A stretch of 64,000 bases of DNA from assembly GCA_001972305.1 (NCBI GenBank), contig BDDD01000311.1, forward strand, positions 310,001 through 374,000, given 5' to 3'. Below the pieces are notes generated by a model that was not told the DNA's origin, made no database searches, and worked only from the letters and a program-made list of their open reading frames with translations. Below, one piece after another: positions 21,840 through 62,021 of this stretch; the first letter of the stretch is position 1, and each line of letters starts with the position of its first letter. The stretch is from Cephalotus follicularis (lineage: Eukaryota > Streptophyta > Magnoliopsida > Oxalidales > Cephalotaceae). Position numbers and translations under genes: made by a program.

Positions 21840-22440
21840 AACAATTCCATTGACGCTTTCTAAAAACATCGACGCCATATAACAGTAGTTTTACATACAT
21901 GCTGAAACATAAAAGATGTCGACGCTATCTACAAAACTCAACGCTTATATAAAATATCGATGCAATTAAAACAACGTCGACGCGTTTGTGTTAGAAAAAT
22001 CCAGAAATCACTTCCAAACTTTAAACATCATTGCAATAATACAAAACATTGACGCATTTCATTAGAAACCAAAAAATCAGTTCCAATTTTAAAACAAGTC
22101 CAATTAAGAGAGAAAGAGAAAAAAAATTTGTTTGATGTATGTGTTGTGTTAAAAAAACCAAATACTAATATATATACATATATATAGAACGACATTGGGG
22201 TTTTAAAATAAAGCGTTATTCTTAAACAATTGCGTCGACGCTTTATAAAAACATTGATGTATTCTTTTCTTTTAAAACAATTACTGGATTACATCGACAT
22301 GATAAAACAATAGGTTTACACATAGACTAAAATATAAACGACATCAACGCCTTTAGAAAATCTCAATAGAATAACAAAGCATCAACGCAATAAAATAACA
22401 TCGACCCATTAGCACTAGAAAGCCCAGAATTCAGTTTAAA
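21840..22440. repeat. cluster of GTCGACGC-type motifs
   Basis: Several copies of a decayed GCGTCGACGC-like word lie here (for example GACGCTTTCTAAAAACATCG, CATCGACGCC, GTCGACGCG, GTCGACGCTTT), spaced mostly 20-60 bases apart. The surrounding DNA is AT-rich and noncoding. The same word clusters inside LTRs A and B and the hAT element, so this is probably an eroded member of one of these. Confidence 0.55.
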
Positions 22441-22639
22441 TTTCAAAACGAGTGAAATCACATTCATTTACAACTCAATAAAAAAAATCATGAAGAGGTT
22501 ATAAAACCCATAATAGCTAACTTTGGCCAAGATCAAAATCAAACTAACCCAAACCAAAATTTATTCGACTCAAATAAAACCAAATATATTAAAAATAGAA
22601 CAAAAAATCAAAGCTCAAGAATGAATTTATCTATTCAGG

Positions 22640-24480
22640 GTATTGCAACCAAATGAGATAAGTTGATACTTCAAGTAGCGTGGAAGGACGAATACAAGTT
22701 TTTAAGTCTATGATGACTTATTGTCATGTCCAACCCAAAAAAATGCTTACGCAGAGGAGAAGTATTTAAATATTTTTAGTGGAAAAGCTCTTTATACTTA
22801 ACTAATATGGGATAAGTTGATACTTGAGCAATGCTTGTCCTCATGTGCAACTTGGACAAACAAATCTTGAGCTCATACAGAAAATCGTATCAGACTCCTT
22901 ACACATGTATGTGAACAAACAAATAATGGGCTCGCATTGTATCGGACAATCCGGTCTATACGAGTGAACATATATTCCATTAATATATGCACGTCATGTC
23001 ATGTCATGTGCTTGCCAATTGCAATCCACTATTCATATAGGATCGTCCCATATTGATGTATATGCAATAGGACCTATCCATACAAACATATTCATATATC
23101 TATCAGACAATTCGTACCATATGTGTGAGCATACTTACATATACCTATAGAGCTTAATGACCTCTTGTACATAACTGTGTTCTAGTTGCCCATTGATTAG
23201 TCCATGTGCGCTTCCTAGTTGTTAGTGGATTGGTCCACAAGAACTCAACTAGGTCAAGTTGTCGGTGGATTAATCCATAGGAGCTTAACTAGTACACGAG
23301 GAATCAACCTGTGTTAGAAAAGTGTCAATTAAGGAGTAACTATATGTAGCCAGAGGGATCAGTTGAACAAGTTGTTCAACGCCTAACATTCTGCATTAGA
23401 AGTTACTAATGACATAACTCTAATAGGTTCAAACAACACCGATGCCATGCCAAGTAAAGTTATCGTTTTTGCACTAATACGTGTAGAAAACCGCTCAAAT
23501 TGATCGAAGATCGATCCATGATCGATTCATGTTTAAAACTGTGTTAAACTCTTTTCAAAACCGTATAAGGAAGCACCCCAAAAAATCCATTTGAAAATGT
23601 CTAGTTAAAACCCATGAATCAAACTTCACAAGAAGAAGCAGGGAAAATGCGTCGATGCTTTTCAATGAATCATCAAGTCTGGGAGGAGCAACACAAAAAA
23701 GTGCCAATGCTCTTTGAACAAAGCATCAACATCTTTCTATGCCACACTCACAGTGGAAATTTTCATAGGCATCGATGCCTTCAAAAAGATAACATTGACA
23801 CTTTCAACAATTGCATCGACGCTCAAAGGAAGTGCATCGATGCTTTTGGGTCTAGAACTTAAGGGAAGAAAATGGTATGGCATCGATGCTTATGGGGAAA
23901 ACACCGACGTTGTTCCTCGAATAGCGTCGACGCATGTTCTTGGCATAAGGAAGAACCCAGCTCGCCATTTTCAAAACCTTAAGCTCCAAACTCAATCTCA
24001 GTCCATTTAAGTCCAAAAAATTGTCATTGAACACTTTAGGCAAGTCTAATAAACGTCTTTAAAGCCATTTTAACTTCCCTTGATCCATTAAAACTCAGTT
24101 TACCAAGATTAGTCCTTAAACCCTAAAAGTCTTAACCTAAGCTTACACAATTTCCAATTCAATCCATCAAATAGTCCATACTTCATCAATTCATGCATAT
24201 AAAAAGGTATATGCAATTAGTGTAGCTATAGACCGTGAATCCATGGTACAATTTAAGATAAAGATATTCTACCAATTGCTAGAAGCTTGTTCTTAGATCA
24301 AAGGTTGAAGAAAAATGGATGAACTCAAGCTCAATCCTACTTGCAATCTTCAATCCAAGCTTAATAAATCAGTTGCAAGCAAGAAATGATCTCCTCCCCT
24401 TTGATTTGGTAGATTGTAAACAATGACAATTTAAGAGTTTTGTGAGGTTTGTTTGTGAGTGAGTGAGTGAGTGAGGAAAT
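22640..24480 (-). mobile_element. eroded LTR-like region ('E')
   Basis: The order resembles LTR A read in the same direction: oligopyrimidine-poor spacer, a GCGTCGACGC motif cluster (23645-23935), then AT-rich DNA with TATA-like TATAAAAAGG near 24199. No clean termini or target duplication were found, so limits are rough and it may be several pieces. A (GTGA)n tract lies at about 24450-24475. Confidence 0.35.
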
Positions 24481-24659
24481 GATAAACTTGTCTTTGTGCA
24501 TTATTTTCATATATTTTAATATCTAATATTTGCTCATTTATTGTTATTATTATTAATCATGTTTTAAATAGTTATTGTTTAATTCAAATTAAAACAGATC
24601 TACAAAAAAGAAAAAGAAAAAAGAAATAAAGAAAAGTTAATCTTGAAAACTCAGAAAAA

Positions 24660-25925
24660 TATTGAATATAGGTGTTGCTGCGTTCACAAAACTATTTTGA
24701 GTACTTTTTATTTGTAGATTGATTTATTTGGAAATGAAAAAAGGATACATAACTGAAACAACAAGAAAACACGTAAAAAATTTGGACTAAATGCTAGACG
24801 GTGCACTATGGGCTTTTGATGGCGCACCGGTACCAAGAAAATAAAATAAATAAATAAATAAACGAAATAGAAGAAAAAATTACATTGCATAAAGTGAATT
24901 GTGGGGCCTTTGCTTTTGTTTTTACTTTCTACACTTGCACGGGAAAGCAAAGCCCAAATCTTTGGTCAATTTAAAGATTACAAAACGTTGCCCTCCCATG
25001 CATTAGGGTTTCATATATATACAAGCCTATGATGTGGAGAGCTTGTTGTGCCGAATTGGAGAGAAGAAAAAAAAAAGGAAGCAACCTGCATTGTGAGTGC
25101 CGTATGGGAGACTGACGCACAGAAGCCGGGCGGCCACTCTTGATTGTTCTATGTAGTTTTTTTTGTTTTATTTATATGAATAGATTAGATTATTTTGTTT
25201 TATTTATTTTTATTATGAACTAATATTTTTATCAAGGTTATGATATAACCTAATGATGATGATGATGATAATTTACTCTAAATAAAATTATTTATCATAA
25301 TTGATTGTTTCATTGTTGAGTGCTCATCATTGTGCTTAATGTTTTAAGGCATCTGGTCAATGAATAATTGATTTAATGATTATATTGAGACGGAGAGGTG
25401 ATATATAGTACATGCTTCTTGGGATGAATGCATGAATTGCATGTAATCAGATATGTGTTCCGTGATTTTTGCAAACGTGTGTAAAATTTCATAGATGTGT
25501 CTTTTTATATTTAAATTCAGGTAAAGATAATTTCAATTTTATTCGAGAGAATTCTATTGGATAAGTTAGGGAGCTTCGTTTGCCAACATATATAATCAAT
25601 TGTGATCAATATGACTTTAAAAGAATTATTTTAGATTCATGATGGTGAAATCAGATGTCTTAACTCTTTCTTATATTAGTTTTATTTTAATTCATTATCT
25701 TTTCTAGTTTAAATTTTCCATTATCTTTTCTAGTTTAATTTTTCATTATAATTTTAATATTATTTTCAACTTATTTTTTAGATAAAATAAAAGTTAACAA
25801 ATTTTCGTACTTGATTAATTAACAATTTTCGTGGGACGATACTTTTCTTATCACTTTATTATTCGTATGATTTCGTATACTTGCGAAAACACCGATCAGG
25901 AAACGAGAGTGTGGGTGAGGATTTT
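24660..25925 (+). mobile_element. possible gypsy LTR remnant (Athila/Tat-like end)
   Basis: A TATA-like TCATATATATACAAGCC lies at about 25010-25026, followed by a purine-rich leader. The 3' part has TTTTCGTGGGACGATAC and CGTATACTTGCGAAAACACC (about 25827-25893). These resemble the 'cgtgggatcgac ... acttgcga' end of Athila/Tat-type LTRs. No coding region follows. Family is an inference from short blocks. Confidence 0.35.
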
Positions 25926-26819
25926 ATAAATATTGAGCTCAATAAAAATACCTTTATACTTATTAAAGCTCGTAAACACTCACAATAATGCCTATGAGTT
26001 ATTTAATATCTCAATCATCAGTCAGATAAATATACGAGCCAATATGCATATTGTCTATACCATAAATAAATATGACGCAATAAATGCTAAAAAGAAATAT
26101 TGGATTCCGGTATCTACACTTGATGATTTGAGTTTGCTGATCTTCAAGGCTCATTGCCATGTGGATGGCTTGATCTTAGCAGAAGATGGTTTTCTCTAAA
26201 TCGAATTTGAGGTCATGGTCTTTGTTGGTGACGGATGGGCAATATAGAGAAATGTAGAACTTTGGGAGTTCACTACAAGGAAAAGGCTCATATGCATAGT
26301 GTGCTCGCATATGAAGAAAACTTGCTCACTTATAAATATAAGTAGACGCAAACCCCGCTCGCATCTACACTCGCATAAAATCTACTAGCATATATTATAT
26401 TCATGAACGCCTGCAAATAGCGCTCGTGTATATTGATCTCATAAGCGAGCGCATAGTGCGCTCGTTGATATAAGAAGCGCTCGCATAAAATGTTCTACTG
26501 GGATTGTAAACTGGTGTTCACATTTAATATTTGTGAGCACCAATGCTCTCGGAATTATCTTATCAAAAAAAAATTATGGGTATTCTAGATCAACTAATAA
26601 CAAAAAAAAAAAACAAAATTAACACTAAAATCATCAATAACATCAATAAAATATGAAACGAACATAAAAATATATTACAATATTCTCATTAACAAACAAA
26701 CATATAATTAAATATGTTACGTACTCGTAATAACAAAAAAATATCCAATGTGCACAAATATAAAGAAAATAACTAGTAAAGAGTTTCGTAGTCAGCATAG
26801 TAATCATCATCACTGTATG

Positions 26820-26922
26820 CATGTCGATGATCACCACCATCACCATCATTACCATCCCCATCCCCATAACCATAACCATCACATCACCACCACCACCACC
26901 ACCATTATCATCATCCTAGGGC
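26820..26922 (+). repeat. (CAT/CAC)n low-complexity tract
   Basis: Imperfect CAT/CAC/CCAT repeat inside the CACTA remnant. It creates a His-rich ORF on the plus strand and a Met/Val-rich one on the minus strand. Neither is considered real. Confidence 0.8.
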
Positions 26923-28519: not shown

Positions 28520-28520
28520 G

Positions 28521-30099: not shown

Positions 30100-32416
30100 T
30101 GTAACACCCTGCGCCCGGATGACGGACACGTGACATTACTCTCAATCCAATATACAAAACAATGGTCGGGACTAACAGTATAAAAATGCGAAAAACTAAA
30201 AACTTTACAATACATCTTAAAATGCGGAAGATACAATATAGTTCTCTTGCAACACAAAACAATAATCCATCAATACGATACAATATGATACTAATTATCA
30301 ATCCTTTCAACACAATTTACAATACAAGCTTTGCCAAAACAAAACGGTCATGTGGTCAAATCGAATCTTCAATTCTTCTGTCTGCTGCTACTTGATGTCC
30401 TACCTGTGCCACACAAGAATGTACACACAGCCCCATCCCAAAGGATGGGGTTAGCCACAAGGCTAAGCAGAACCCCCATGCAACATGTATACATGTACAA
30501 TGTACAATATCCATGGTAAATTATACAATATCAATGTGCTGTGTACAATATCAATGCATGATATGGTAAATGCAGCCATACAATTTGCGATATGACTATC
30601 CATATGACACTGGCCCATATCAGAACATATGGATAGGATCTATAACAATCAATCAAAGGCAAACACTCAGTGGTTGTGTATAAAACACACAATCAATCAA
30701 TCATATTCTATAGAGCATACGACCTCGGGTCAATACAATGTCAATCAATGACAATGATCAATCCCACGGAAGGTAGTCTTTCGAAAAGGGTGGGAGATCT
30801 ATCTACTTATCTCAGACTGATCAGGTCTGGGACTCATATATCTTCCAGCCTATGGCTAGGTCAATGCAATATCGATGAGCATCAACCGTCGGTGAGCTTC
30901 AATCGTCGGGGAGCTACGGCCCTCAGGGAGCATCAATCATCAATCAATCAATACTGCTCGTCAGCAGGTTAATACAATAAATGAAACGATCGACGAAATA
31001 GGTGGACAAAGTCAACAACCTAACATGCCGATGCGAGTCATAAGGTCACTCTATAGGATCCATACAATACAATCAATCTGTCACTATGATGCCAATAAGT
31101 GGTGATGTCTAATGGATAAATGAGAATGTGCATCTAACGTTCCGAACTTAGATTCACGACACCTATGGCTCAAGCAATCAATCCATATGTCAATACAATC
31201 ATTGAAAACTATTGAAAACTTTTTTCAAACGCTTGAATACCTCAAGTGAAGCTCCGGTCAAGCGACGATGTGAAAAGAAGTTGAAAACTAGCTTTAAAAC
31301 ATCAATTTTCCAAATCAGGGCGTTAGGCGTTGACGCTATGGCCATACGCATCGACGCTTAACATTTACTTTCAATAATAGGTTGATGGGCGTCAACGCCT
31401 TTGGCAGAAGGCGTCGACGCGCATCACATTTCTTTAAACCAGTGAGTTAGGCATTGACATCCTTGGATCAAGGCGTTGAAGGGTAAACAAAAAATGTCGA
31501 CACTGAGATGGCTTATATGATTTATGTTGATGTCTAACCAGGGAGAAAGAAATCCCAAGTCGTACGCGTCAACGCCAAAGATATATGTTACGTCTAATAA
31601 ACCTCCGTAAAACAGTTCAAAAGCTTAAGGCGTTGACACCAATGGGCTAGGCGTCGATGTCTGTGCTGGGAAAAACCATTTTTCAACAAAAAATGAAGCC
31701 AATCTCATGTCAAATTCCAATTTAAAGCAATTCTTTGAAAACCAAGGGTTAAATCACTCCTTTAAGGTTAGTAAAACTTGTTACAACCTTCAATTTACAG
31801 TTCCAATCTTCCTGGATCAGTTAGATCAAAGATTCAATTTAAAAACCCTTATATCACAATTCAATACAACACAATCACTCAATCATTCAATTCAAGCAAT
31901 CAGTCAATCAAGTGATAAACAATTCAAGTAGATAAATCCTACCTAGAAATGGAGCTTCAATAGTTGAGCTACAAATCAATCAATCGGTTGGAAGCACTCA
32001 AGAACTAGCCGTTGCCTTGTTCAAGAAGAAAGGAGGTGAGACTTGCAATTGCCATTCACTGCTGGTGTGGCATCCAGAGCTGTTGGGGAAAGAGAAGGGC
32101 TGCTCGGCTGGGAGAGAGAGAGAAGGAGAAGGATAGAGGGAGAAGGAGAAGGAGAAATGGGAAAATGAGAGAATGAGGGAGAAATGGTTAAGTGTTGACT
32201 TATATAGTCAATCCAGCCAAATCTCTGAAACTTAGCCAAAAATACCCCAACTATACATGCATATGATCAATACTATAAGCAATAGGTATAGAAATACATC
32301 AAACCAAACATCACTCAAGGTCCAATACAATTCGACACAGTCCAATACAATTCAATACGGTATAATGTATGCATAAACAATGCTCAATAGTACAAAGGGG
32401 AATTCGGGTCGTTACA
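30100..32416 (-). mobile_element. solo LTR 'A1' (2317 bp), gypsy-type
   Basis: The minus strand starts TGTAACGACCCGAATTCCCC at 32416 and ends GGGCGCAGGGTGTTACA at 30100. A TATA-like GACTATATAAGTC lies at about 32195-32208, followed by a CT-rich leader. It is homologous along its length to LTR A2 (52976-55205), sharing the TGTAACACCC edge, the AATGGT..GGACTAACA block and the GAGATCTATCTAC block. A GCGTCGACGC cluster lies at 31320-31670. No internal domains flank it. The flanking 5-mers (ATAGA / CAAGA) match only in part, so an old insertion is likely. Confidence 0.8.
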
Positions 32417-43490: not shown

Positions 43491-45013
43491 AGAATGTGGG
43501 CAAAACGTCGATGCTTTGGAGCAAAGGGTCTGTGCTTAGCGCCCTGCTCTCTGCAAAACACAATGTTTTCAACCCTTTTCAACCTCAACTGCTCTTCTCT
43601 TCAAATGGTTCCATAGGAAGTCTCCCTATGGCATTGTAACGTATGTGAATCCTCTTTTACCACATTTGATTTCTAAATCAATCTTCAAAGTAAACTTTAA
43701 AGAAAAGTTCAATAAAAGAGTTTTATAAACATTCAATGGATTTCAAATGGTCTTCAATAAATGGTTAGGTTAGATCAATTGGGATGTTTGGACGCGAATA
43801 TCCTAGTTGGGCTTCCCCTCCATTGTTTTCTCAACTCCGATAGGGACCAAGAAATGGTTATGAAAAATTGTTATGGAAATGGTTTTAAAATGGTTTTGAC
43901 GGATGAATCCTACACAATCCTTTATAGTCAGGTCCCTATCATTTAAATGGTTACATGGTCATGGGCTATGAGTATACATGGTTATGATTATGGTTATGGT
44001 TTGTTATTGTTTGAGACCTAACGAGATAACCTATTCATAATCTTCATTCGTGTCATGTAGGTTAGGGATGTTAGATCACATCATATGGGGCAAATTGGAT
44101 ATTGGGACACCACTTTAGGTGTGGGCATACGTGGGACACCGCATTGTGGGTGGACCAATGGGCAAATGGTTGGCTAGGACCAATGTGGACTAGCGTCATC
44201 GTATCGTTTGCCAGGACCATTGAGGACTTCTGTTATCATATCGTTTTCCAGGACCATTGAGGACTTATGTTATCGTATCGCTGGTGTGATCAGTGTTATC
44301 TCGATCCCACGCGGCTACAACCCAAGGGGGGTGTGTAGGCAGTGATTGTACTACCTTGAGTTGGAAGGGCAGGATAGTACTCAGACCTTATGGATTGTTT
44401 GCCCCATGGATGGTAATGGATTGTTCTATGGAGTGTCTGCAGGCCTATAGGGTTACAGGGGGTCCGGGCCGGGCCGGACCATGGCTCCGACCGGCCGGGA
44501 CCGGTGAAAGGCGGTCCGGTTCTTGAACCAGACTGCTTTTGTCATGGTCCGGGCCAGTCCGATTCATGGAGCTAAAAAATGAGAACCGAACCGACCCGTG
44601 AACCTTAACCATGAGTGAGACGGGCCGATCCGGGCCGGTTCGGTTCATATTCACGTTGACGCGTATGTATGACGTTGACACTAATGTCATTTGAGCTGAT
44701 ATGCGTCAACGCTATCTTATGACTATGATGAGGTGGAATGCTTTTCATCTTGTGCGTCAACGCTATCTATTAGCGTTAACGTCATGTTTTTGCATCTACG
44801 ATGACGTCAACGCCTATATCTTCTGTATCAAAAGGTACACGATAAGCGTCAACGCATAAGTTAGACGTCGATGCCTACGGGTCGAGTATATAATGCTCTG
44901 TGCGTTTTCGTCGACTCTTACTTGTTTTGGCGTTGAAATCCCTAGTTTCCCTCTCTCTGCTTTCTCTAAAATCCGATCCCTAAACATAAAAATCTTGAAT
45001 CTTTTCCTTCACT

Positions 45014-46195
45014 ATGCCGAAGAGCAAGCACATATCAGTTGGAGGGAAGCTACCTGCTGGTCAGAGATACAAGAGCTCTTATGGTGGGAGAAAAGTGCTG
45101 TGTGGAAGGAGGGTTGATTTCTCCTTCACTACAGGTGATAAGTTTAATCTAGAACAATGGTTTGATGTTTTAGGTTGGAAAGATTACTTTACGATTAATG
45201 CTCTATATTATATAGAATATGTTAAAGAATTTTATAGCAATTTGAGTAATGTAGGAGATGATTGCAATGATGTATTGGAATTGAAGACTAAGGTTAATAA
45301 AGTAGTTATTAAGTTTGATGATAAGATTCTAGGTCAGATTTTGAATGTACCTGCTATTGGATCAAAGTTTTTTGAAACTAAGAAATGGCCGGAGGATCCG
45401 GAATTAGTTTTGGAGGATTGTCTTAGGGTGTTCTACCCTAATGAGAATATTTTTGGAGGCATGGCCAAGCCTACCAATCTCCTTGGTGCTGAGCATAGGC
45501 TGCTCCACCACATAACTGCCACTCACATTCTACCTACCTCCGGTGGGCATGAAAATATGAGTTACCAAGACTTATATATTATGTGGCACGTTGTGACTGG
45601 TAAACCATTGAACCTCCCTCATTTAATCATGAAGAACATGTTAAGAGCAACTTATAAAGTTGAAGGTGCATTGCCATACGGTATGGTAATCACCATGATT
45701 CTCTCTCACTTTGGGATATTGTTTGGGAATGAAGTTGCATCGAGCCTAGATGTTGGGGACATCTACAATGCCTCTTCCTTGAAGAGAATGGGATGGAAGA
45801 GAGTGTTTAATTCTGAGAAAGGTGTTCAATGGCTGCCCAAGGAAGGTGGAAGAAAAAGAAAAAGAGTTGAAGGTGAAGGTGATGAGGATGTTGAAGAGCA
45901 AGAACAAGCTCAAAGAAAAAAGTAAACCCCTGCACCACAGATGCAGCAAGGTCAAGCAAGTAGCAGCAGCAAGGCGTCTACGACCATGGATCTTGTGGCT
46001 GATTATCTAAAGAGGTTCAATATCAAGATGGATAATTTGAGAGGGGAATTTCTTGACCTCTTTGACGATACACATAGAAAACTTAGAAGACTGGAGAAGA
46101 AGATGATTGCCAAAAGTCTTATTAAAGCTGGTGACCTCTCCTCTTCGGAAGAAGAAGAATCGGAAGAAGAAGGAGGAGATAATGTGAAGACTTGA
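45014..46195 (+). pseudogene. plant transposon protein (PF20167-like) gene inside the hAT
   Basis: An open frame of 303 codons from ATG 45014 is followed by one in-frame TAA (45923-45925). The same frame then runs another 90 codons to 46195. The first part has IEYVKEFYSNL (about residues 70-80), a long helical middle, and LLHHITATHILPTSGGHEN then GALPYGMVITMILSHFG. This pattern fits the 'putative plant transposon protein' family of unknown role. A basic GGRKRKR stretch could be a nuclear signal. After the TAA the frame reads KMDNLRGEFLDLFDD, coiled-coil-like RRLEKKM, and an acidic SSSEEEESEEE tail. It is preceded by a GCGTCAACGC cluster. Either one stop killed a 393-residue gene or the first part is the whole protein. 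Confidence 0.7.
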
Positions 46196-47292
46196 TTCAT
46201 ACATTGCATTTTCTGTTTTTAAACATTTAGTTTATATCAGTTGTAAAACTTTTGTTTTGTATCAAATTTTCAGTTCTCTGGATGTTATATTATCATGTTA
46301 CATACTTGATCCTATATATGGTTATGATGAGATGTTTGTGTAATGTGTATGAATATGTTTTTAAGAGAATGTATCAAATGTTTTTAAATTGATATCATAT
46401 ATGCAAAGGTTATGTTCGACAGTTATGCATCAAATGTACCCGTAGGCTAATGTTTGACAGTTATGCATCAAAGTGTGTATCAAATGAAAACAATTTTATA
46501 TATGTTATGCATCAAATGTTTGACAGTTATGCATGAGATGTTATATATGTTATATATTCCTAGGGTATGTTTGAATATCAAGATGGTATAAATTGATATC
46601 ATATGTGCATCAAATGGTTGAAAGGTTATGTTTGAAAGGGGTAGAGTTAGAGTTTAAAGGTTTTGCTTATGTTTGAAAGGAGTAGAGTTATGTTTGATAG
46701 GAAAAATTGCAAGTGAAAACAAGCAATATGTGCATTCTGTCTTATTAGCGTCAACGACTATATCTTAGGCGTCAACATGCTGGGCTTGAATATGAGTTTA
46801 TGTGCTTTGGAAGATGATCTTCGTCAACGCATATAATGATTAACGTCGACGTGCTGGGAATTTCATTATCTGCATCAACGCCTTTAATGATTAACGTCGA
46901 CGTTCTAGGAATTTCATTATCCCCGTCAACGCCTTAAGTAAGACGTCAACGTAAAAAGGTGAAACGTCAACGCTTTAAGGAAAACGTCAACGCCAAAAGG
47001 TGCAATTTCGGACAGTAGCTTTGGACGTTAACGTTAAGCATTTTTAGCGTCAACACTTATGATTAAAACGTCAACGTCATTTTTAGACGTCAACGCAGAA
47101 GAAAGCCCAATGCGGATAGTGACTTGAATGTTAACGCGAAAAGTAAAAGGAGTCAACACAAATGACATCCGCGTCAACGCTATACTTCCGCGTCAACGTG
47201 AATAAATATATTTAGCATTTTTCAAAACAAAATATCAATTGAATTCAAGAAGATCACAGTTTAATATTTGAATGTTAAAAAAACATCAAAAG
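46196..47292. other. spacer between the two convergent hAT genes
   Basis: AT-rich. 46380-46640 holds loose direct repeats of ATGCATCAAATG and GTTTGACAGTTATGCATC. 46740-47205 holds a dense cluster of about 15 GCGTCAACGC-like words (for example GCGTCAACGC, ACGTCAACGC, ACGTCGACGT) in both orientations. Confidence 0.7.
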
Positions 47293-47478
47293 TTAAGTAC
47301 ATATTAAAAAAACAGTAAATTCTTCTTCCGATTCGTCTTCTTCAGATGAGGAGATGTCATCAGCAGCTTCAATAATTCCTTTGACAATCAACTTCTTCTC
47401 AAGTCTTCTTTGTCTTATGTGCTGATCATCAAAAAGGTCAAGAAACTCCTCTCGCATATTGTCCATCTTTCTGTTCAT
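47293..47478 (-). pseudogene. inverted copy of the 3' module of the plant transposon protein
   Basis: The minus strand reads KMDNMREEFLDLFDDQH, then RRLEKKLIVKGIIEAA, then SSSEEDESEEE. This is clearly homologous to the tail of the plus-strand gene (46025-46170). It is in frame with the end of the transposase, separated by the transposase stop at 47506-47508. It is therefore an inverted partial duplication placing the same acidic tail behind both convergent genes. Whether it was ever translated is unknown. Confidence 0.75.
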
Positions 47479-47505
47479 CTTCCTCGAATTCTTGGCGATG
47501 TAGTT

Positions 47506-47843
47506 TTATTCGTCACTACTACCGCTATCTTCGTCTATAATTTTTTGAATCCTCCTATCTTGAGCGATCCAATCTTTCAAGCAAACACAAATCTCTACTG
47601 TTTCTGCTTTCAACCGCCCTCTTCTCTCATCTAAAACCCTACCACCTGCAGAAAAAGCAGATTCGGATGCTACTGTGGACATAGAAGCTGTTAGTATATC
47701 ACGTGCCATTATAGAAAGAATTGGATAAAAAGTATGTTGTTTTTGCCACCATTGTAAAAGATCTAAGGACGCTCTATCTTCTTTATTAATGAACTGAATA
47801 TTAGTATTAAGGTAATGTTGTAGTTCAGTATTTGTATTAATCA

Positions 47844-47879
<36 letters not shown>

Positions 47880-49652
47880 CAACTCCATAAGCAATTCTAT
47901 CAAAAAAAATCTATGGGATCATTACCACTACTATTAACATTTTCTTGATATTCATTTCCAACACTATATTTTTTAACATATGTATCAAATGCATCATGTA
48001 ACAATTGAGTAATCTCATTACCATCTAATTGTATTGGATTACCTTTGCTCATGCATATTTGACATTTGTTTGCAATGAATAACATACCTTGTCATTTTAT
48101 TCTAGGATCCATTATAGCAGCCAAACAAAATAAAAGTAAAATTGTTTCCCAATATTTTAGGAATTTTTCTTCTATCACATCACAAATATCTATAAAATTA
48201 TTTTCCACCCTATATTTAGCAAAAACTTTACAAATTTCCCACAGTTTACCAACGACTAAATTTGTAGTAATATAATAAGAACCAGAAAATAGATCAGTCA
48301 ATTCTTTAAATTTTTCTAAAAATTGGGTCATAACATAACAAGTTGTCCAATCTCTATCAGATATTTCAGAATAAGAAGAATATGCAGTCATGTGCATACC
48401 TAGGAATGCATTTATTTGTAATCTAAATTCATAAGCACGCAACAACATTTCATAAGTAGAATTCCACTTATGTGTCACAGCATGTACCAAATTTTTATAT
48501 TTCAAATCACATTCATTACAAAGTTGTTTAAATGTTTGTTTTCTTACACCCGATTGGGCTATAAAGGTAATAAGACTTGTAATTTTTTGTATTTGTTCTC
48601 CAACAAAAAGTAAACCATCTTGAACAATCAAATTAATAATATGACATACACATCTAACATGAAATAATTTACCATTTAATATGAGATCAAAAAAACCTCT
48701 TAACTGTCTAACAGCAACATCATTATTAGTAGCATTATCAAAACTAATAGAAATTTTTTCCCCTCAATTCCAAACTCACGAGTTGTTTCTATTATAGATG
48801 TAGCTATATTATGACCGGTGTGAGGATAATCCAAATCTTTAAATGCAATAATTCATTTTTGTAATAACCAGTTTTCGTCAATATAATGTGTAGTTATACA
48901 AATAAAACTTTTTCTCGTGCTTGTGCTCCAAACATCAAACGTGAGAGAAAAAGTAGAAATATTTTTAAAAGAGAAATTAATTTAGCCTTGTGTTCTTCAT
49001 AAATAATAAGACAATCACTTTTAAAGGTAGTTCTTGAATATAATTTCGCCTGAGGATTAAGTCCTTCATGTACTAGATTACGGAAAAAAACTGAGTCAAC
49101 ATGGGAAAATGGTAATTCATTACCTATAATATAATAAACTAATTTTCTTCTATAATTTTCATCGGTAAATCTAAAAGTAAGTAATTTATTATCACCACTG
49201 ACCTGGCTAAATTGGAGTTGGGTTTGGCCCGAACCTTTAACACCATGTTGTTCCAAGCATTTTACTAAATGCCTCTTGTAAGTTCCCGTACCATCCCCAC
49301 TTGTATAAGCATAATCATTATTCTTACATACCTTGCAAAAGACTCATTTCTTCCCATTCTCGACATCTCTAATCTCCATGTGCTTCCATATGCCAGATTT
49401 TTGTTTCCCCCCTTTGTTAGGATCGTTCTTCTCGGATTGTAGGGATGTTCCACCGATCACAGCATCCGATGGCATATCTTCATCCAAGTCAAAAAATTTA
49501 TCACCAGGTGGAGGAGGTTGTTGCATCATGTGGGCCATTTGGTCGTCGTCAGAAGGAAGTTCCACATCCGCCAAGTCGAACGCGGTGGTGGATGTAGAAC
49601 CCACCTTCTCGGTCCTCCTTGCTTGTTTCCTTACTCTTGACATTGAATCCAT
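47506..49652 (-). pseudogene. hAT transposase (BED finger, hATC), degenerate
   Basis: In minus-strand order: acidic N-terminus (MDSMSRVRKQARRTE..., 49652-49344); BED-type zinc finger CKVC...TYKRHLVKC (about 49240-49340) just after an in-frame TGA; the YEEHKAKL region (about 48970-49015); SFDNATNND (about 48720-48755); HVRCVCHIINLIVQDGL (about 48615-48670); an all-alpha middle (48092-48631); a Ser run; and the hATC dimerisation domain with LDLLQWWQKQ and STVASESAFSAGGRVLD (47550-47760). Intact relatives bind the element ends and cut and paste them. Several stops and frameshifts disable this copy. The 5' end faces the right-hand terminus. Confidence 0.9.
47840..47879 (+). repeat. (ACT)n microsatellite in the transposase
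   Basis: A pure ACT run of about 13 units; on the minus strand it encodes a Ser run between the alpha-helical middle and the hATC domain of the transposase. Confidence 0.85.
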
Positions 49653-51058
49653 TATAATTGAAATATGTAATTAACTAATAATTAAAAAATAAGTCATATG
49701 ATAAATTATAAAAGTTAATACACTATAAGGCAATGTAGTACAATAAAACTCTATAATTTTGACAAAATTTGATTGCAATGTTGATTGTTGTTGTTCTTCA
49801 GTGATTCAACCTTTATTTATAGCCTTCATATTGAATATAGCCGTTGAAATAATCTTGTAGCCGTTGGAATCACTTTAGGAAAATGAAATCTCCACTAAAA
49901 ACTATCCGTAATTTTTGTCTGTTTGATTTGACGTCGACGCTTACTATTAGCGTTGACGTCAATGTCTTTGTGCGTTAACTCCAATGGTTCTTCGCGTTGA
50001 CTCCATTAGCCGCTTTCTGATTTTTGCTTCATTCGCGTCGACGCTTTTTAATAGCGTTGACTCTAATGTCATTTGTGTTGACTCAATTTTTCGTATGCGT
50101 TAACATCCACAGCTACTGTTCGTTTTTTGCACCTTAGGCGTTGACGTCTAAATATTGGAGTTGACGTTTTCATATTGGAGTTGACGCCAAAAATACAATT
50201 CCCAGCGCGTTGACGAGGATCATCCTGAATCAATTCATGTTGTAGCCCTCAACGTTGACGCCAATATCCTAGGCGTTGACGCCAATATCACGGTCCAGTC
50301 CGGGCCGGTTCAACGGTTCCTGATTCCCTTAACCGGACCGGACCGCATTGCCCGGACCGGTTTAATCATGAACCAGCCACGTGGCACACGGTCCGGGCCG
50401 GTTCAAGGCCCAGACGGGCCGGTCCGGGACGGTTCACGGTTTTAACCGGACCCCTTGCAACCCTACAGGCCTATGACCTTTGATATGATTAGGACTAGCC
50501 AAGTATGCCACCGCTTAAGGACAGTTGGTATACCAATGCTGTCCACAATTGGCATTCATGCATTTCACATGCCATGCATATACCCGCTATATCTGTTGCA
50601 CTTCATTGCATATAGTATTGCCTACCTAGCTGTGTTTGGCTGACACATTCTCAAAATGAGCACAACATCTAGGATCGAATGCTGATGATACCTCGACGTG
50701 AGATAGGATGGTTCGCACAGCAGGATCTCTTGTAGCAGTGCAGTTTTCGCCATCTACCTTGTGTATATGAGATTTGGTTGTATGAGATTGGCATAAGACC
50801 TTGTTATATAAGAGACATATTGTATTTCAGCTATTGTGACCTGCTGGCTTATGGCAGTGCTTAAGATATATATATATATATATATTGAATGTTGTATGTA
50901 TGGTTGGGCTTACCTATGCAAGTGTTTAATGGTTTCTTCTGTATGCATAATGTATATTAAAGTTTTAATTGTACGTTTTTTTGGGGTATGATGGATCGTA
51001 TGGATGGACCTGACACGTGTCGGACTGTGAGGACCTCCTCTCGGTTCGGGGTGTGACA

Positions 51059-51180: not shown

Positions 51181-54100
51181 ATAAGCAACCATGCCAAGTG
51201 GCTACAAACAGTCAGGCATCAAGAATACCACCAATGGTACAAACAGTACAGTTGTCTGAAGATCAGTAGTGGGTGTCAAACGTCTCTACCTCCTAGTCCC
51301 AACGATGCAACACCTAACTACCACCATACACTCCGATGATGATAGAAAAGGTAAATAGTATTGCCGGTACTTGGCAGGCACTTAACAGTCATGGACTGCA
51401 TTGCATATAAGTTTGGTGTATAAGCTCTAGCAAACTCTTGGCACCTAGGCCCACCTCTGTAGTCCGTGATACACTTCGATCACTAGACCATCATAACTAT
51501 CAATCACAAACAATACAGTACAGTTATTACATACATAATGTAATATAGCAATAGTTCTCTTTTGTAGAGAAAATAGTAAAATAGTGACACTGATTCTCAA
51601 TTTTGAGATAACAGTAAACAGTATAGTAAGTTCTCATTTTTGAGAAAACAATGCAGTATAAAACATTTAATTGTGCATATAGCACTCAGTTCTTGAAATC
51701 CTTTGAAACAATAGTAATTATAAAATTACTTTGATAGATATAATATATCTATAACAGTAAACAATATTCAATTTGCATAACAGTACGATTCACAGTGATA
51801 TGCAAGCAATCATATGCTTAAAATGCAAACAGACCCTTTTGGCGTCAACGTGTATCTTAGGCGTTGACGTTTATCCTTAGCGTCGCCGTATTCCTTCTTT
51901 GAATGTAAACAGTATAAAACATAGACTGTTAGGCATCAACGTGTATCTTAGGCATCGACGTATTTCTCCTTGAATTCAACACGTTAAGGTAGGAACCTTC
52001 CGCGTCAATGTTTCTCTTTAACGTCGACGCGTTAAAGTATGAACCTTAAGCGTCAACGTTTCTCTTAGGCGTCGATGCTTTCTAAGGCAAGGATTTAAAC
52101 ATCAACATATAACCACTTTGGCGTCGACGAGAATCTACGTAACAACATAGAATATCGACTATTTCAATAAGGCGTTAACTGTTCCTTTTGGCATCGACGA
52201 GAATCAAATATATCAGGATATACAAACCACAGTCAACCCAAGCAAGCATGAATTCAACAGTTCAAATCGGTGTAATATCAACATGCAAGCATATATACAC
52301 CATCTCAACACAATATACATGCTATATCCTCAAGAACATGTCATAAATCCTACCTGAGTAGCTATCCCAGAATCAATTGATTGATTCTTCTCTTTCTAGC
52401 TCAAAACTCCAACAATTCAGTCACTCTATGATTCAATAAAACCTATCCATTTTGCCAATTAGCAGTATGTACAAGATCAGTACATATATACATACATATA
52501 TAAACTGATTAACCATGATACAACTATTGAATTCGACCAGAAGCTTACCAACAATTCCACGCTTCAAGTTCAACTTTGAACACCCTTCATTGCAAGAATT
52601 CGGTACAATAGATAGCTCTCTCTTTCTCAGTAAGATTTCTAACACTCAACTCAACTCTTACAGTGTCTGATATAGAAGATTATCTCAGTGATTCAGTGAA
52701 TCTTCTAACTCAACATTCTGACATTTTTGCTTCTCTTTCTAACTCCATTAACTCATAATTGTGTTCTCATCTTGCAGGTTGCAAGAGCTTAGGACACTAA
52801 GCTTTCTCTTCAATTGGCAGCTGGCGTCTCATGCTGTTGGATTCTTCAGTGTTTGACACATTCCCCTTGCATTTAACACGAGTTAAACACCTGTCCAGAT
52901 TGAAGGACACTCATGCCATTCATTCTCTTTCAATCAACACGTATCAGGACGTTTGTCTGGGTTCTTGTAACACCCCGCACCCGCAGGGCGGACACATGGT
53001 ATTACTCTCGATCCAATACACAATACAATGGTTAGGACTAACAATATAAAAATGCGGAAAAACTTAAAACTTTACAATACATATCATTGTGCGGAAGATA
53101 CAATACAACAATCCATCCATACGATGCAATACAATACCAATCTTTTACAATACACTTATCAAACTCCTCAATGCAATGTTACAATGAACTCTGTCAGATC
53201 CAGACGATCCCCTCGGTCAATGGAATCTTCAATCCTTCGGTCCGCTGCTACCTGCTGCCCTACCTATGCCGCACACAAAATGCATAACACAGCCCCACCC
53301 CGAAGTGTGGGGTTAGCCACACTGGCTAAGCAGAAACCTCACGCAGCGTATATGCATGTACAATGTGCAATATCGGTGACAATCTATGCAATATCAATGT
53401 GCGGTGTACAATATCAATACATGACATGGCAAATGCATGTGTATAGTTGGCGATCAGACTACCCGTATGACAATGGCCCATAGCAGAGCATATGGATATG
53501 ATCTATAACAATCAATCAATGGCAGACACTCAATGGTGGTGTATAAAACACCCAATCAATCAATCAATATCCTATAGAGCATGCGACCCCGGGTCAATAC
53601 AATGTAAATCAGTTAGCAGTGATCAATCCCACAGAAGGTAATCCTTCAAAAAGGGTGGGAGATCTATCTACTGTCTCAGACTGATCAGGTCTGGAACTCA
53701 TAGATCTTCCAGTCTATGGCTGGGTCAATACAATCTCGATGAGCTACCCCAAATGAGCTACTGTTACCGTTAGGGAGCTATGGCCCTCAGGGAGCATCAA
53801 TCATCAATCAATCATGCTCGTCATCAAGACAATACAATAAATGAAACGATCGACGGAATAGGTGGACATGGTCAACAACCTAACTTGTAGACACGAATCA
53901 TAAGGTCGCTCTATAGGATCCATACAATATAATCAATCATGTCAATACAATGTCAAAGCAATGTCAATAAGTGGTGATGTCTAATGGAGAATGGGAATGT
54001 GCGTCCAACATACCGACTTAGACTCACAACACTTATGACTCAAGCAATCAATATGTCAGTGCAATCATTTGAAAACTGTTTTCAAACACTTGAACACCTC

Positions 54101-55519
54101 AAGTGAGGCTCCCGTCAAGTGACCATGTGAAAAGGAGTTGAAAACTAGCTTTAAAATACCCCAAGATTCCATTCAGTCCATTAGGCGTCGATGCCCTTGG
54201 AGAAAGACATTGACGCATCTGTAAAACGATGGAAAGACGTTGATGTCTTTGAAAGACATCGATGTCTTTCTTTATTTGTATAGAGATCTGGCCAAAAGAC
54301 GTCGATGTCCTTGGCGAAAGACGTCGACGCGTTTCAATAAAAATGGCCTGGAAATGCGCATCGATGTTCAGCATCGATGTCTTTCCTGGGGAAAAGATAT
54401 CTCGAGGCAAAGACGTCGATGTCTTTGCTGTGGAATCAAAGATACTGCATTCCAAAGCGAAAGACATCGACGTCCATGGGCTGGGGTCGATGTCTTTGCT
54501 GGGCAGGGTCGATTTTTGTGCAGAAAATTAGCCGATCTCAAGTCAAAATCCAATTTAAAACCATTCTTTGAAAACTAAGGGTTAAAATCAATCATTTAAG
54601 GTTAGTAAAACTTGTTACAACCTTCCAATTTCAGTTTAATCCTTCTAGATAAGTTAGATCAAGAAAATCAATAAAAACCCTAGTTTTTCAATTCTAGACA
54701 AGACAATCATTCAATCGTTCAATTCAATCATTCAATCAATCAAGCAGTAGGCAATTCAAGTAAAGAAGTCCTGCCTATAACTGAAGCTTCAAAAGTTGAG
54801 CTTCCAATCAATCGATCGGTAGGAATCGCCCAAGAACCCGCTACTTTCTTGTTCAATCGGCAAGCCGCAACTTGCAAGTGCTATCTTTATTGTTGGAGAT
54901 GCAAATCCGAAGCCGCTATGGGAGAAGGATGGAGGCTGCCCAGAAGAGAGAGATGGGGAGAAGGATAGAGAGAGAGAAGGAAAAGAATGGGAAATGTGAG
55001 AAATGAGAGAAATGGCAAGGGAATTGACTTATATAGTCAATTCGGTCAATTCTCCGAAACTCAACTCTAACATCCCGACTATACATGCATATGATCAATA
55101 CAATAACAATAGGTATAGGAATACAACAATTCAATACAATTCGATATGATCCAATACGGTACAATATATGCATAACAGTACAAAAAGGGAATTTGGACCG
55201 TCACAGTTCTAGGCATTGACGTCTTTCTTTGGCGTCGAGGTCTATGCGCCAAGCTTTCTTTCAATCGACATGTATCAAAATACTTGTCTGGCTCAAGGCG
55301 TCGACGCCCTTCGTTGGTGTCGACATCTATGCGTCAGATTTTAGCCACTCAAGTTATTCGAAATAACTTCCAATTTATTTCAATTTAGTCCTTCATTCCT
55401 TTAATTCAACAACAATAATTAGTTCGAATCAAAGGACAATCAAGCATTAATTTCAATTCAATGTATAATTTATTTATCATTTATACAATATACATTAAAT
55501 TAGAATTGCGATTATTACA
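51181..55519 (-). mobile_element. truncated LTR 'B2', split by LTR A2
   Basis: From ATAAGCAACCATGCCAAGTG at 51182 onward it aligns with LTR B1 from 58703. At the other end AATTGCGATTATTACA (55519) matches B1's AATTGCGGTCATTACA (62021). About 440 bases at the 51181 edge are missing relative to B1, so the copy is truncated. A GCGTCAACG cluster lies at 51840-52200 and continues at 55205-55325 past the nested LTR. Confidence 0.8.
52976..55205 (-). mobile_element. solo LTR 'A2' (2230 bp) nested in B2
   Basis: Same family as LTR A1. The plus strand reads TGTAACACCCCGCACCCGC at the left edge and GGGAATTTGGACCGTCACA at the right. It is flanked by a perfect 5-bp duplication, GTTCT, at 52971-52975 and 55206-55210. 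On the minus strand a TATA-like GACTATATAAGTC lies at about 55022-55035. A GACGTCGATGTC-type cluster lies at 54180-54500. There are no internal domains. Confidence 0.9.
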
Positions 55520-57620: not shown

Positions 57621-57689
57621 GGATTCGCCTAGTTTCATTTATATCGCAAATGTTGAAGCTGCCTCTTTATTGTCACAAATCATGGAAAG

Positions 57690-58250
57690 AATAATCTTTT
57701 GAAAAAAAACCACATCTTAGGATTGTCACCAATTAAACTCCACAGCAAATTACCTAAGCTTCTATTAGTGACTTCAGTTTGGCCATCTGTCTCAGGATGG
57801 TGGGATAAACTAAACTGCAATGTAGTCCCCGTTCTTCTCCACAATGTGTGCCAGAAGTCACCCACAAATTTGACATCACGGTTAGAAGTGATGGACTTAG
57901 GAACACCATGAAATCGAATAATCTTCTAGAAATACAAACAAGCCACCTGACTATCATAAAAAGTCTTGTGGCAGGGAACAAAATGACCCATCTTTGAGAA
58001 CCTACCAACAACCACCATGATTGAATCTTTGTTCCGTTGTGTTCTAGGCAGCCCTAACACAAAATCCAAATTCAAATATTCCCACGGTGCTACTAGAAAT
58101 GGTAAAGGAATATATAAGCCCGTGTTGGTGCGACGGATCTTGGCAATATGACAAATTTTGCATCTGTCCACCAATCTAGCAATTTCACATTCCATGCGAG
58201 GCCAATAAAAATACTCAATCACTAGGGTCAGTGTCTTATTCTTCTTAGGT
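57690..58250 (-). pseudogene. gypsy integrase remnant
   Basis: Minus-strand order: WPRMECEIARLVDRCKICH (zinc-finger end), LNLDFVLGLPRTQRNKDS and GRFSKMGHFVPCHKTF (catalytic core), and HHPETDGQTEVTNRSLG. These are standard Ty3/gypsy integrase blocks. The piece is broken and ends in DNA belonging to another repeat. Confidence 0.85.
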
Positions 58251-58255
58251 ACTGG

Positions 58256-61200
58256 TGTCACACCCCGTTCTCAATTTTCATTTATTAAACATGGTTATCA
58301 GTTAATCCAGCATTTATAAATCCAATAAATTTAAAACTTTTAGCATAAGCAATCAATAATACTGGATTATATAAAAGTATTTGCATGAAGCCCATACTAC
58401 ATGCTTACTCAGTACAATACCAGTCATATATTACATATCGACAATGTAAATATAACTTTAACAAAGTATGACTTTATTACAATATTCGATAACATTACAA
58501 CTATAACAACCTTGAAATAAAAAGCCTCCAAGTGTAGCTTCAGCAGCTCGTGGAACTCTTCACTTCAATCTGTAATTGTAGGTGTTAGCCGTTGTCCTCA
58601 CTTGGTTAAGTAGGAAATATGTATGAAAATGAACATATGAATGACATCATGCATGACAATTATATCATTCAATACTAAGTATATATATAATTGAATATAT
58701 ATAAGCAACCATGCCAAATGGCTACAATCAATCACTTTCAAGAATACCGCACAAGGGTACAATCAATCACTACACTGGGTGGGTGTCATCTCGTGCTACC
58801 TCTTAGCTCAATCGATGGACCACCTGACTATCACCATGCACTCTAATGTGATAGACTAGGTAAACACTTATTACCGGCACTTGGCGGGCAATTTAACGCT
58901 CTTTGTCTACAATGCAGATAATTTTGGTGAATAAGCTAGAGCCAACTCCTGGCACATCCGCTCACCTCTGTAGTCAGCGGCATACTCCAACCACTAGACC
59001 ATCGAAAACACTTCAATCACAATCAATCACTGAAATTACATATATATAGTATCTAAAAATAACACTGGTTTTCTTTTGAGAAAACGGTAAACACTTCACT
59101 GACTGTGCCTCTCTTGGAGGAAACAGTAAAACTCTTCACTAGGTTTCCCTTTTGAGGAAACAAACAATACACTTAGTTTTCCTTTGAAAGCAGTAATAGA
59201 AAACTATTTGATTATGCATATAGCATCAATAGTAAAGCACTTGAAATCACTTGATAGATATATAATATCTATAACAATATATCCCTTCAATAATGTGCAA
59301 TCACTCAATCAATACAATCATTGGTGGTTCTAGGAATCAAACCACATAAATGCAAGCAAACATATGCTCAGAATGTAAAACAGTCACTATTGGCATCGAC
59401 GTGTAACTTAGGCGTCAACGTGTACTTATGCGTTAACGTCATTCACGCGTCAATATTCAACAATGGGTATAACGCATTAACGAAGGACCTTATGCGTCAA
59501 AGTTCAATATTGGCGTCAACGCGTTAAGGTAGGAACCTTAAGCGTCAACGTTGTCCTTTTAGGCGTTGATGTCCTAGAACCCAGTAGGTTTACGCGTCAA
59601 TGTTATCCTTTTAGGCATCAACGTAAATCATCATAACAGTACGAAACATCAACTATTTCCATTAAGGCATTAATGTCAATCACTTATGTGACATCCGTGA
59701 CCTTGTACGGTCTGTGTCTGTAAGCCTACGTGGCTTCTATCTGTCTGTCGGTCTGTTAATCTGTTTTCTCGCATTCATGATATGCATCATGGCATTATTT
59801 AAATTTTTACGATTTTATTCTGATGGTTTTCTGCATAAGAAATGAATTTGCCTTTCCGAAAATTGAACAATGTTTTACTGAAACTGCTGCTGATTTCGGA
59901 AAATAGCCCAAGTGGTATGTCCTAAATATCTGATTTTTGTCCGTATCGGTTTAATTTTGGACGAAACCTAGTCCGTTTTGGGTTGAATATAAATGGGAAA
60001 TTTCATTTTTTTTTGGCATTTTTGCCATCTCTCCCGCTTTCTCTCTCCTCCCTCCTGATCTCTCTCTCTCTCTCTACTCCTGTCGTCGGCGTCAGAGCCG
60101 ATCTGACACCGGCGAGGGTATGGGTCGAACCGCCATCACCTCCCGATCACACCGGTCCCAGCCTCGACGCCGATAACGGCGCCGTTTGCGCCCGGCGACG
60201 CCTTCTCCCTCCGCGGCCGTTTTCCTTCGTTCCGGCGCCTCCGGTGGTCGTCACGGCAAGGGGAGGCCAGATTCGGACTCCTGGCGTTGCGGCCGTTCGA
60301 ACGGTACCGGCCTTTCTGTTTTTAGTTCTGACAGGTTAGTCTGCTGAGCTCTGTCAGCTGGAGTCTGTTTGTCTGCTGAGGTGAGATCACAAAAAGGGCA
60401 TGCTACCAGAGTCAAAACATGCATATCATATTTACATCAGTATTTAAATTCTGCATTACTTATATGTTTATATAACTGTTTTGGTTTTGTTTAAAAAGGG
60501 TTGAACCCTATTCAAGTTTTAAGTTTTGCTAATACGGTTGAGGCAGAGCCCAACCCATTTCTTGTTTTCTGTTTAAATTGTGATCTGCTGAGGGCTGAGC
60601 CCATTTTATAAACTGTTCCTCCTTCGGGAGTGTGTTCTGCTGAGGGCTGAGCCCATTACAAACTGGTTCCTCCTTCGGGAGTGTGATTTATAAAACTGTG
60701 TTTTTATTTACAGGGGGCATAGTCCTATAAATGAATACTACATGCCCGATTTTCGTAAAATTTTAAGAGTTAGAATTATTTTCAAGTTTTTCAAGAAACT
60801 TTTATGTTTTCTTTATGGTTTGAAGATTTCTTCTGTTTTAAAATGCTTTTCTGAATCTCTGTTCTGCTGAACCTACGAGGTGAGTCTCTGTTGGGAGGCT
60901 TGGCCTCGTAGCGGGCGCGACGGATTCCAGCGGGTCTGGGTCCGGGCGTCACAACTTAGGCATCGACGTAAATCATCCTAATAGTACGAACATCGACTAT
61001 TTCCGGTCATGGCGTTAACGTCATTAACTTAGGCGTCAACGTAAATCTTCCTAACAGTACGAACATCAACTATTTCCAATCATGGCGTTAACGTCATTCA
61101 CTTAGGCGTCGATGTAAATCAATGCAGTTAGACATTCAATCAACAATCACTTCAAGCAAGCGTGGATTCACACTTAGGATCAACATGCAAGCATCCACAA

Positions 61201-62021
61201 TCACCATGACACAATATACATGCCATATTTTCAAAAACATGTCATAAACCCTATCACGGATTCCAAGTTAGGAATCGAAAGTCCACTTCTTTAAGCTCTA
61301 AACCGATCCTTAACTTCTCCAAGCTTCAAGACTTGGTTCGATAGCTCCAAGTTCAGGTTCTAATCTCTGGTCCTCAAGCTCCTTCGTGCGGCTGAAAACG
61401 GTAAGACAACATCTCTCTCACTCTCTCGTTCTTTTACTGGTGTGAGATTTGGAGAAGATGAGAGGAGCTTTAATGGAGTCTTCACCTCTCTCTCTCTCTC
61501 TCTTCCTCATGGCATGGCAGGTCGAGATGACCTCCATCAATCACTCTTCTCTCACTTTCGTCAGTGCAGAGCGCATGGGGAAGTGTAAAGTGTCATACTT
61601 TTGTCCCTCATGCGTCTTCTGTTCTTGTTTAACTTACTCTGCCGACAGCTTAGGCGTCAACGTCAACGCTGGGCGTCGACGCGTTGACTCCATGCCTTGG
61701 CGTTAACAAGCTCCCTTTAGTCATGTTAATGCCTATCCCCTTAAGTTCACCAGTAATGGACGTAACGTCCTTGCATGGCATCAACGCCTTAAGGAAAGAA
61801 GCCTTAAGCGTGTTTCAGTGTTACTTGGCGTCGACGTCAATGCATGGCGTTGACGTGCAAGTGCCCTGACTCCTTATAATTTCCATCACTTAACTCATCC
61901 TTTCATAACCACAATAACAATAGCCAAATAAAAGTCCACTTAGCAATTAAATCTCAAATCAATGTATAATTTTATTCATGATTTATACAACATACATCGA
62001 AATGAAATTGCGGTCATTACA
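58256..62021 (-). mobile_element. solo LTR 'B1' inserted in the gypsy element
   Basis: The plus strand begins TGTCACACCCCGTTCTC and ends AATTGCGGTCATTACA. It is flanked by a perfect 5-bp duplication, ACTGG, at 58251-58255 and 62022-62026. Removing nested LTR F and its extra target copy leaves about 2.5 kb. It is homologous to LTR B2. GCGTCAACG-type words cluster at 59390-59660, 60955-61120 and 61640-61860. No internal domains. Minus orientation is inferred from its terminal sequences, which match LTRs A and C read in their own sense. Confidence 0.9.
59687..60953 (+). mobile_element. solo LTR 'F' (1267 bp) nested in B1
   Basis: It starts TGTGACATCCGTGACC and ends GGGTCCGGGCGTCACA, flanked by a perfect duplication, ACTTA, at 59682-59686 and 60954-60958. 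A TATA-like TTGAATATAAATGGG lies at about 59983, followed by a CT-rich, GC-rich leader. The 118-codon ORF at 59983 falls in that leader. A local repeat (GGGCTGAGCCCA, TCCTCCTTCGGGAGTGTG) lies at 60590-60685. Confidence 0.9.

Follow-up and report, generated by a model that had tools for sequence, protein, structure and literature searches.

We analysed a 64,000-nt stretch of the Cephalotus follicularis genome (contig BDDD01000311.1, positions 310,001–374,000; hereafter the window) and found that the ten-letter word GCGTCRACGC, which is enriched across the assembly, is grouped into arrays whose neighbouring sites lie whole helix turns apart. The arrays occur in the non-coding parts of two kinds of mobile element: a 6.0-kb hAT transposon, where they lie around an accessory gene of the Transposase_32 family (PF20167; hereafter T32), and a family of long terminal repeat (LTR) retrotransposons, here termed family A. 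The system is real and strongly non-random, and most likely represents a set of protein-binding arrays common to transposon classes. Judged from sequence, the clusters are very probably phased binding sites of some protein, for which T32 is the most likely single candidate and a host factor nearly as likely. A preliminary description of the window had proposed a binding site for a common protein. That proposal is now supported by the symmetric word with its pyrimidine–purine (YR) centre, the phasing, the mostly unrelated linkers, the placement upstream of a gene and within an LTR, and the near absence from coding sequence.

A palindromic word is enriched across the genome

The scanned assembly comprised 1.577 Gb in 9,746 contigs, the window being a piece of one of them (C311). 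It contained 113,710 sites of GCGTCRACGC (~114,000), counted as 73,186 + 20,366 + 20,158 with the palindromic form taken once; the strand matches were 93,552 forward and 93,344 reverse, against 446 and 486 for the same word with its letters reversed. The commonest form, GCGTCGACGC, had 73,186 sites, versus 121 for its letters reversed. A palindrome with identical letters and the same three CpG dinucleotides, GCGACGTCGC, was found at 73 sites, and a control with a purine–pyrimidine (RY) centre, GCGTRYACGC, at 511. The low counts of GCGACGTCGC, of the reversed word and of the RY centre indicate that the arrangement of the outer letters matters, as does the central YR step. The flanks around the core were weakly AAGG...CTT-like. 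Within the window, GCGTCRACGC had 21 strand matches (15 sites) compared with 0.01 expected from 100 dinucleotide shuffles, and GCGTCGACGC with at most one mismatch had 27 matches compared with 0.14 expected. The shuffles, together with the GCGACGTCGC and GCGTRYACGC controls, rule out an origin in composition or CpG content, and the dense clusters of the preliminary description proved to belong to a phenomenon larger than it had reported.

Arrays were mapped with a looser core, CGTYRACG, with decay of one outer CG permitted, and a cluster was defined as a run of three or more loose-core sites in which no neighbours were separated by more than 250 bp. This core gave 104 sites in the window, versus 3–18 for control cores. 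A random sample was also searched (20 stretches of 10 kb, of 80 planned, drawn from the first 340 kb of the first 309 contigs); in these 200 kb the loose core had 88 sites versus 13–44 for six control cores, one of which, TWWA, has TTAA in common with the motif. In random DNA it thus exceeded the control cores just 2–7 times and was less specific than the exact word, so that our statements on arrays rest on clusters and exact word together. Seven of the 20 random stretches carried 12 clusters (a raw count). Of the 12 clusters listed earlier for the window, 11 hold at least three loose-core sites; the one at 55205–55325 does not.

Sites are spaced by whole helix turns

Distances between loose sites piled up at 19–22, then 29–31, 41–43, 50–52 and 61–62 bp, with few off the peaks (four at 23–28 bp and one at 32–37 bp), in a tally that takes in homologous hAT copies. 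The period of the clustered sites was 10.05–10.4 bp, that is, whole helix turns, a spacing absent from the preliminary description. The 11 arrays outside the hAT yielded 68 neighbour spacings and represent fewer groups (family A is counted twice, and L015/L022 and L010/window 61 kb are related pairs; L numbers denote loci elsewhere in the assembly). The 56 spacings within 15–110 bp, bounds that leave out four short spacings (6, 13, 6 and 13 bp) and eight long ones, gave a Rayleigh z of 20.9 at 10.05 bp; z was 33.5 for 86 spacings with the hAT added, and 30.4 at a peak of 10.40 bp for the four divergent T32 loci alone. All three z values are a guide, since the period was chosen by scanning and the pairs counted depend on one another. 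Among the spacings of 15–40 bp outside the hAT, 22 of 29 fell at 19–22 bp. The same distance prevailed among exact-word pairs genome-wide, with 5,054 forward matches for pairs at 19–22 bp versus 277 at 24–27 bp.

Tandem units are present inside some arrays (46.8, 52.0, 59.4 and 61.0 kb), and some linkers recur among exact-word pairs. Outside the hAT, the 44 pairs at 18–22 bp fall into 34 linker groups. The rule therefore concerns distance more than sequence, and there we reject the idea that the spacing arose mainly by tandem copying. Such an arrangement would suit a dimeric, sequence-specific protein that reads GCGT-YR-ACGC and occupies one face of the helix, with neighbouring sites two, three, four or five turns apart.

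Arrays occupy non-coding parts of a hAT transposon and a Ty3-type LTR retrotransposon

The hAT transposon lies at 44448–50465, with terminal repeats TAGGGTTACAGGGGGTCCGG / CCGGACCCCTTGCAACCCTA and an 8-bp target duplication, CAGGCCTA, at 44440–44447 and 50466–50473; a homologous empty site is present in L031. Transposase pieces on the minus strand (47509–48763) include a dimerisation region at 47509–47910 and an RNase-H-like region at 48092–48631, and the domain matches were PF14372 (E 3.6e-09) and PF05699 (E 6.7e-26). With terminal inverted repeats, duplication and transposase domains all present, the element is a hAT. Three further copies (T32 identity 88–96%) are the same element, L030 with an internal deletion and L031 with an insertion. 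CACTA subterminal repeats, an early idea from CACTA/TAGTG words in the window, were dropped once the hAT ends and duplications had been found.

Three arrays are carried by this element. The first, upstream of T32 (44654–44873), has 8 sites at −360 to −148 from the T32 ATG; the second fills the interval between T32 and the transposase (46749–47198, 17 sites); and the third (49932–50281, 9 sites) lies between the pieces that code for the transposase and the right-hand end, partly aligning with the middle array in inverted orientation.

The family A LTR is about 2.2 kb long. A solo copy at 52966–55205 has TG...CA ends and a 5-bp duplication, GTTCT, at 52961–52965 and 55206–55210, and is inserted in another repeat, termed repeat B; its array lies at 54186–54472. 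A second copy at 30100–32416 (end approximate) has an array at 31328–31659, and further relatives are L028 and L026. In L028, the LTR (570–2959) adjoins integrase, RNase H and reverse transcriptase pieces, with gag further along the same strand; the far LTR lies outside that stretch. Family A is thus a Ty3-type LTR retrotransposon, as its LTR ends, duplication and linked Ty3-type gag-pol demonstrate. The earlier placement of clusters in a hAT and in this LTR family is confirmed by the target duplications of both elements.

Arrays lie in the non-coding parts of elements, and the word is near absent from coding sequence: element coding sequence with domain support (15,543 bp) contained 3 sites, versus 164 in the remaining 108,457 bp of the same loci, some of which were picked because they bear arrays. 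The presence of arrays in the hAT and in the family A LTR, and probably in further Ty3-type LTRs, suggests that one protein may act across element classes.

A conserved T32 gene lies between the hAT arrays

The T32 gene occupies 45014–46195 on the plus strand (PF20167, E 9.6e-27); the window copy has a stop at 45923–45925, with the frame continuing to 46195. First looks at the genome gave 14,633 and 13,073 candidates, of which 130 and 150 were scored. Nine copies, including that of the window, were read for arrays (the start of L035 is approximate). In seven of the nine, an array lay upstream at −480 to −102 from the start. Sites within 1.5 kb downstream were found for eight of the nine (none in L031), those of L033 and L035 possibly being the property of neighbours. 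The genes themselves contained one site in all nine copies summed. T32 proteins with as little as 71% identity showed this placement. Between subfamilies, the ratio of non-synonymous to synonymous substitutions (dN/dS) was 0.10–0.15 at dS of 0.93–1.54 (all 14 finite of 15 pairs), showing that T32 is under old purifying selection. By eye, basic stretches can be seen in the protein, and its C-terminal tail is acidic and heptad-like. The selection, the basic stretches, the heptad-like tail and the position between arrays make T32 the best single candidate for the binder.

A side observation concerns the tail. At 47362–47499 on the minus strand, beyond a stop, a transposase-side tail shares 57–60% identity with that at the C terminus of T32, so that both genes of the hAT have a tail in common. 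The stop before it is kept in three of three copies (window, L029 and L036), and the tail itself is open in the window and L029 and has one stop in L036.

The motif centre varies with the element

The preliminary description had read the variants of the word as CpG decay of one palindrome. Decay can explain the outer CA/TG variants, which are common among loose sites, and we retain it for those positions alone; it explains the central CA form poorly. In the hAT middle array, the ratio of CA to TG centres was 13:0 (binomial p 0.00024, a guide since copies share ancestry), and the CA centre also prevailed downstream of T32 in relatives (12:1 in L032, 8:0 in L034 and 12:0 in L036). This one-sidedness is not well explained by independent CpG decay, and the central CA form looks inherited or selected.

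A TA-centred form was abundant upstream of divergent T32 genes (3 of 5 sites in L032, 7 of 13 in L034 and 4 of 11 in L035); its share upstream of close copies was 1 of 8 in the window, 1 of 9 in both L029 and L030, and 1 of 5 in L031. The motif centre may shift along with the T32 subfamily.

Other array carriers

Repeat B extends over about 51.1–55.5 and 58.3–62.0 kb. The array of its first copy (51843–52199) has 10 sites, and the repeat resumes at 55397–55519 past the family A insertion; the second copy has arrays at 59394–59623 and 60961–61114, with other repeat sequence in between (59681–60953). A further array at 61655–61855 is related to that of L010 (70% over 205 bp); in it, overlapping loose sites lie 6 bp apart at 61655–61661 and 61829–61835, each with the next site 13 bp off. 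Arrays in unclassified stretches were found at 21848–22387 (8 sites) and 23650–23932 (3 sites by the loose core). Among the random stretches, arrays lay downstream of integrase pieces in L010 (by 2.7 kb), L015 and L028, and L009 had one array ahead of a gag piece and another past gag. From such positions near gag or integrase pieces, the arrays of repeat B, L009, L010 and L015 are probably in LTRs.

Array-bearing elements were also nested. The family A solo LTR sits in repeat B near the array of the latter, and the L031 hAT copy holds a repeat-B-like insertion. Flank matches of L031 with L011, C1c and L015 fall in the insertion inside that hAT copy and are not hAT sequence. In the family A LTR of L026 (7644–9993), nearly the whole array now consists of decayed, CATCGATG-like words, with one loose site remaining, and the CpG observed/expected ratio is 0.56 versus 0.70–0.81 in the other copies. 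The 30-kb copy of family A has 47–63% identity in the array core (columns 1500–1799), compared with 56–89% in the other 100-column blocks, and keeps several aligned site positions, for which an aligner bias towards the word is possible. The other three copies had no such excess of divergence; faster evolution of arrays in general, found in just one of four copies, is not claimed. Glycosyltransferase-like open reading frames (ORFs) were also read by eye in the window; like the plant transposon family PF20167, they point to plant DNA.

Candidate binders and alternative explanations

Our leading account is that phased arrays are bound by a dimeric protein, that this protein is T32, and that it acts against silencing, in the manner of VANC proteins, across element classes. 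T32 encoded by the hAT would bind the arrays of its own and of other elements, bound arrays would keep element promoters open against silencing, and the array-carrying LTR elements would profit in trans. Taken as a whole, this account is tentative, with a chance somewhat below even. Its widest version is an anti-silencing commons in which hAT-carried T32 would bind the phased palindrome and open control regions in two transposon classes at ~10^5 sites, Ty3-type families having acquired arrays; in that extent we think it rather unlikely.

Several observations weigh against this account. Four of the 68 neighbour spacings outside the hAT are of 6 or 13 bp, all at 61.6–61.9 kb of the window, and five spacings of 33–35 bp occur in divergent T32 loci. 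Two of the nine T32 copies (L033 and L036) have no upstream array. Six pairs of recent T32 copies have dN/dS of 0.44–0.91, as expected of decaying copies. A T32 profile searched against the 177,635 sequences of PDB gave no match at E up to 10, and a single-sequence fold of the protein had a mean predicted local distance difference test (pLDDT) score of 36, was not used and showed no DNA-binding fold. The centre varies by element, with one-sided CA in the hAT middle array and CG commonest elsewhere. Finally, tblastn found no T32 gene in the 20 random stretches, seven of them array-bearing, so most random arrays are not beside a T32 gene.

This last result favours a binder supplied by the host, either a transcription factor or a protein of chromatin, with arrays of its site gained independently by the elements as promoters. 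Heat-responsive LTRs that gained heat-shock elements offer a precedent, the helical phasing fits an enhancer, and arrays are found within an LTR as well as upstream of a gene. In addition, one strand of the CA variant contains TTGAC, the core of the W box recognised by WRKY factors. The commonest form, GCGTCGACGC, lacks TTGAC, however, and no host site of such form was identified. The upstream array has also persisted next to T32 across divergences of dS about 1 or higher, although an activator from the host would give the same result. We regard a host factor as a serious possibility, only slightly less credible than the account centred on T32.

That T32-centred account has a second competitor within the hAT itself. 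The arrays could be subterminal sites of the hAT transposase, with the LTR arrays bound by that transposase or by a domesticated one. hAT transposases commonly have a BED finger, the subterminal binding sites of Ac transposase are AAACGG repeats, and two of the three hAT arrays lie ~180–540 bp from the element ends. The largest array is mid-element, however, a hAT transposase is not known to serve the movement of LTR elements, and the upstream array holds a similar distance to the T32 start across subfamilies. Transposase sites are therefore improbable as an explanation.

Plain homology, with copies of one satellite or small element spread to every family, accounts for part of the data. The arrays of L010 and window 61655, of L009 and L016, and of repeat B and window 60961 are homologous, and those of L015 and L022 are related, leaving fewer independent families than clusters, and linker recurrence and tandem units point the same way. 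It does not extend to the hAT: in an array-only comparison of 13 groups, the longest hAT match to any of the 12 others was 37 bp at 78%, and at E 1e-3 the whole window hAT matched neither the non-hAT loci compared nor the rest of the window. For these loci, homology of longer segments, the refutation envisaged in the preliminary description, is rejected between the hAT and the other arrays, and the 34 linker groups among 44 pairs argue likewise; as a general explanation, copying is very improbable. Least probable of all is DNA shape alone, in which YR steps at each helix turn would bend DNA and place or exclude nucleosomes with no dedicated binder, as the period of 10.05–10.4 bp and the YR centre would permit, for the full ten-letter word is conserved, far more than a YR step, and the composition- and CpG-preserving reordering GCGACGTCGC has 73 sites.

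Comparison with known systems

To our knowledge, element-coded sequence-specific anti-silencing has been described mainly for VANDAL elements. A phased site common to DNA transposons and LTR retrotransposons would point either to a regulator encoded by a transposable element and used as a common good, or to an exploited host factor. With a precise word, a rule for the spacing and Transposase_32 as a candidate protein whose function is unknown, these possibilities can be tested directly. Like the AAACGG repeats of Ac/Ds, the arrays include repeated short sites near hAT ends; unlike them, they also lie mid-element and in LTR retrotransposons. In searches of open-licence literature, we found neither the word described as a transposon motif, although the string itself occurs in 92 papers there, nor Transposase_32 described as a DNA binder.

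The preliminary description had drawn an analogy with VANC and VANDAL, and as a mechanism this remains plausible, given an accessory gene in the hAT, arrays around it and a motif rare in coding sequence. Membership of that group is contradicted: the element is a hAT and not a Mutator-like element, the accessory protein is Transposase_32 and not DUF1985, and different element groups carry the same word. As in VANC/VANDAL of Arabidopsis, a short motif is repeated in non-coding parts and an accessory gene lies beside the transposase, and, as with VANC6, whose motifs are present also in AT9TSD1, an element unrelated to VANDAL, the motif reaches unrelated elements (PMC5735166, accessible part). The carriers here are hAT and Ty3-type LTR elements, not Mutator-like ones. 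The accessory protein is Transposase_32 in place of DUF1985/DUF287, and, where VANC21 and VANC6 have different motifs, one word is common to hAT and LTR families, centre preference aside (PMC5735166, accessible part). Helical phasing was not seen described for VANC motifs in the accessible part of that source (PMC5735166). The T32 accessory proteins match PF20167 and had no DUF1985 match even at E up to 10. Genome searches for DUF1985 and for Athila ORF1 (PF03078) each gave 0 matches, with positive controls equally silent.

SIRC elements are likewise short repeats interrupted by diverse sequence and tied to mobile elements, but the accessible part of their description gives many separate consensuses (1,666 without palindromes and >1,200 with), whereas here there is a single word with helical spacing (PMC10342631). 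For the accessory gene itself, a close known case is that of sunflower Athila elements, where, according to the accessible part of the report, the additional ORF of Athila 14 has partial PF20167 similarity, is said to be related to Athila ORF1 and is predicted to be nuclear, and the additional ORF with Transposase_32 is of unknown function (PMC11728184). Unlike that ORF (PMC11728184, accessible part), the PF20167 gene described here belongs to a hAT DNA transposon and has arrays around it, which offers a hypothesis on the role of Transposase_32 and of the additional ORFs of Athila.

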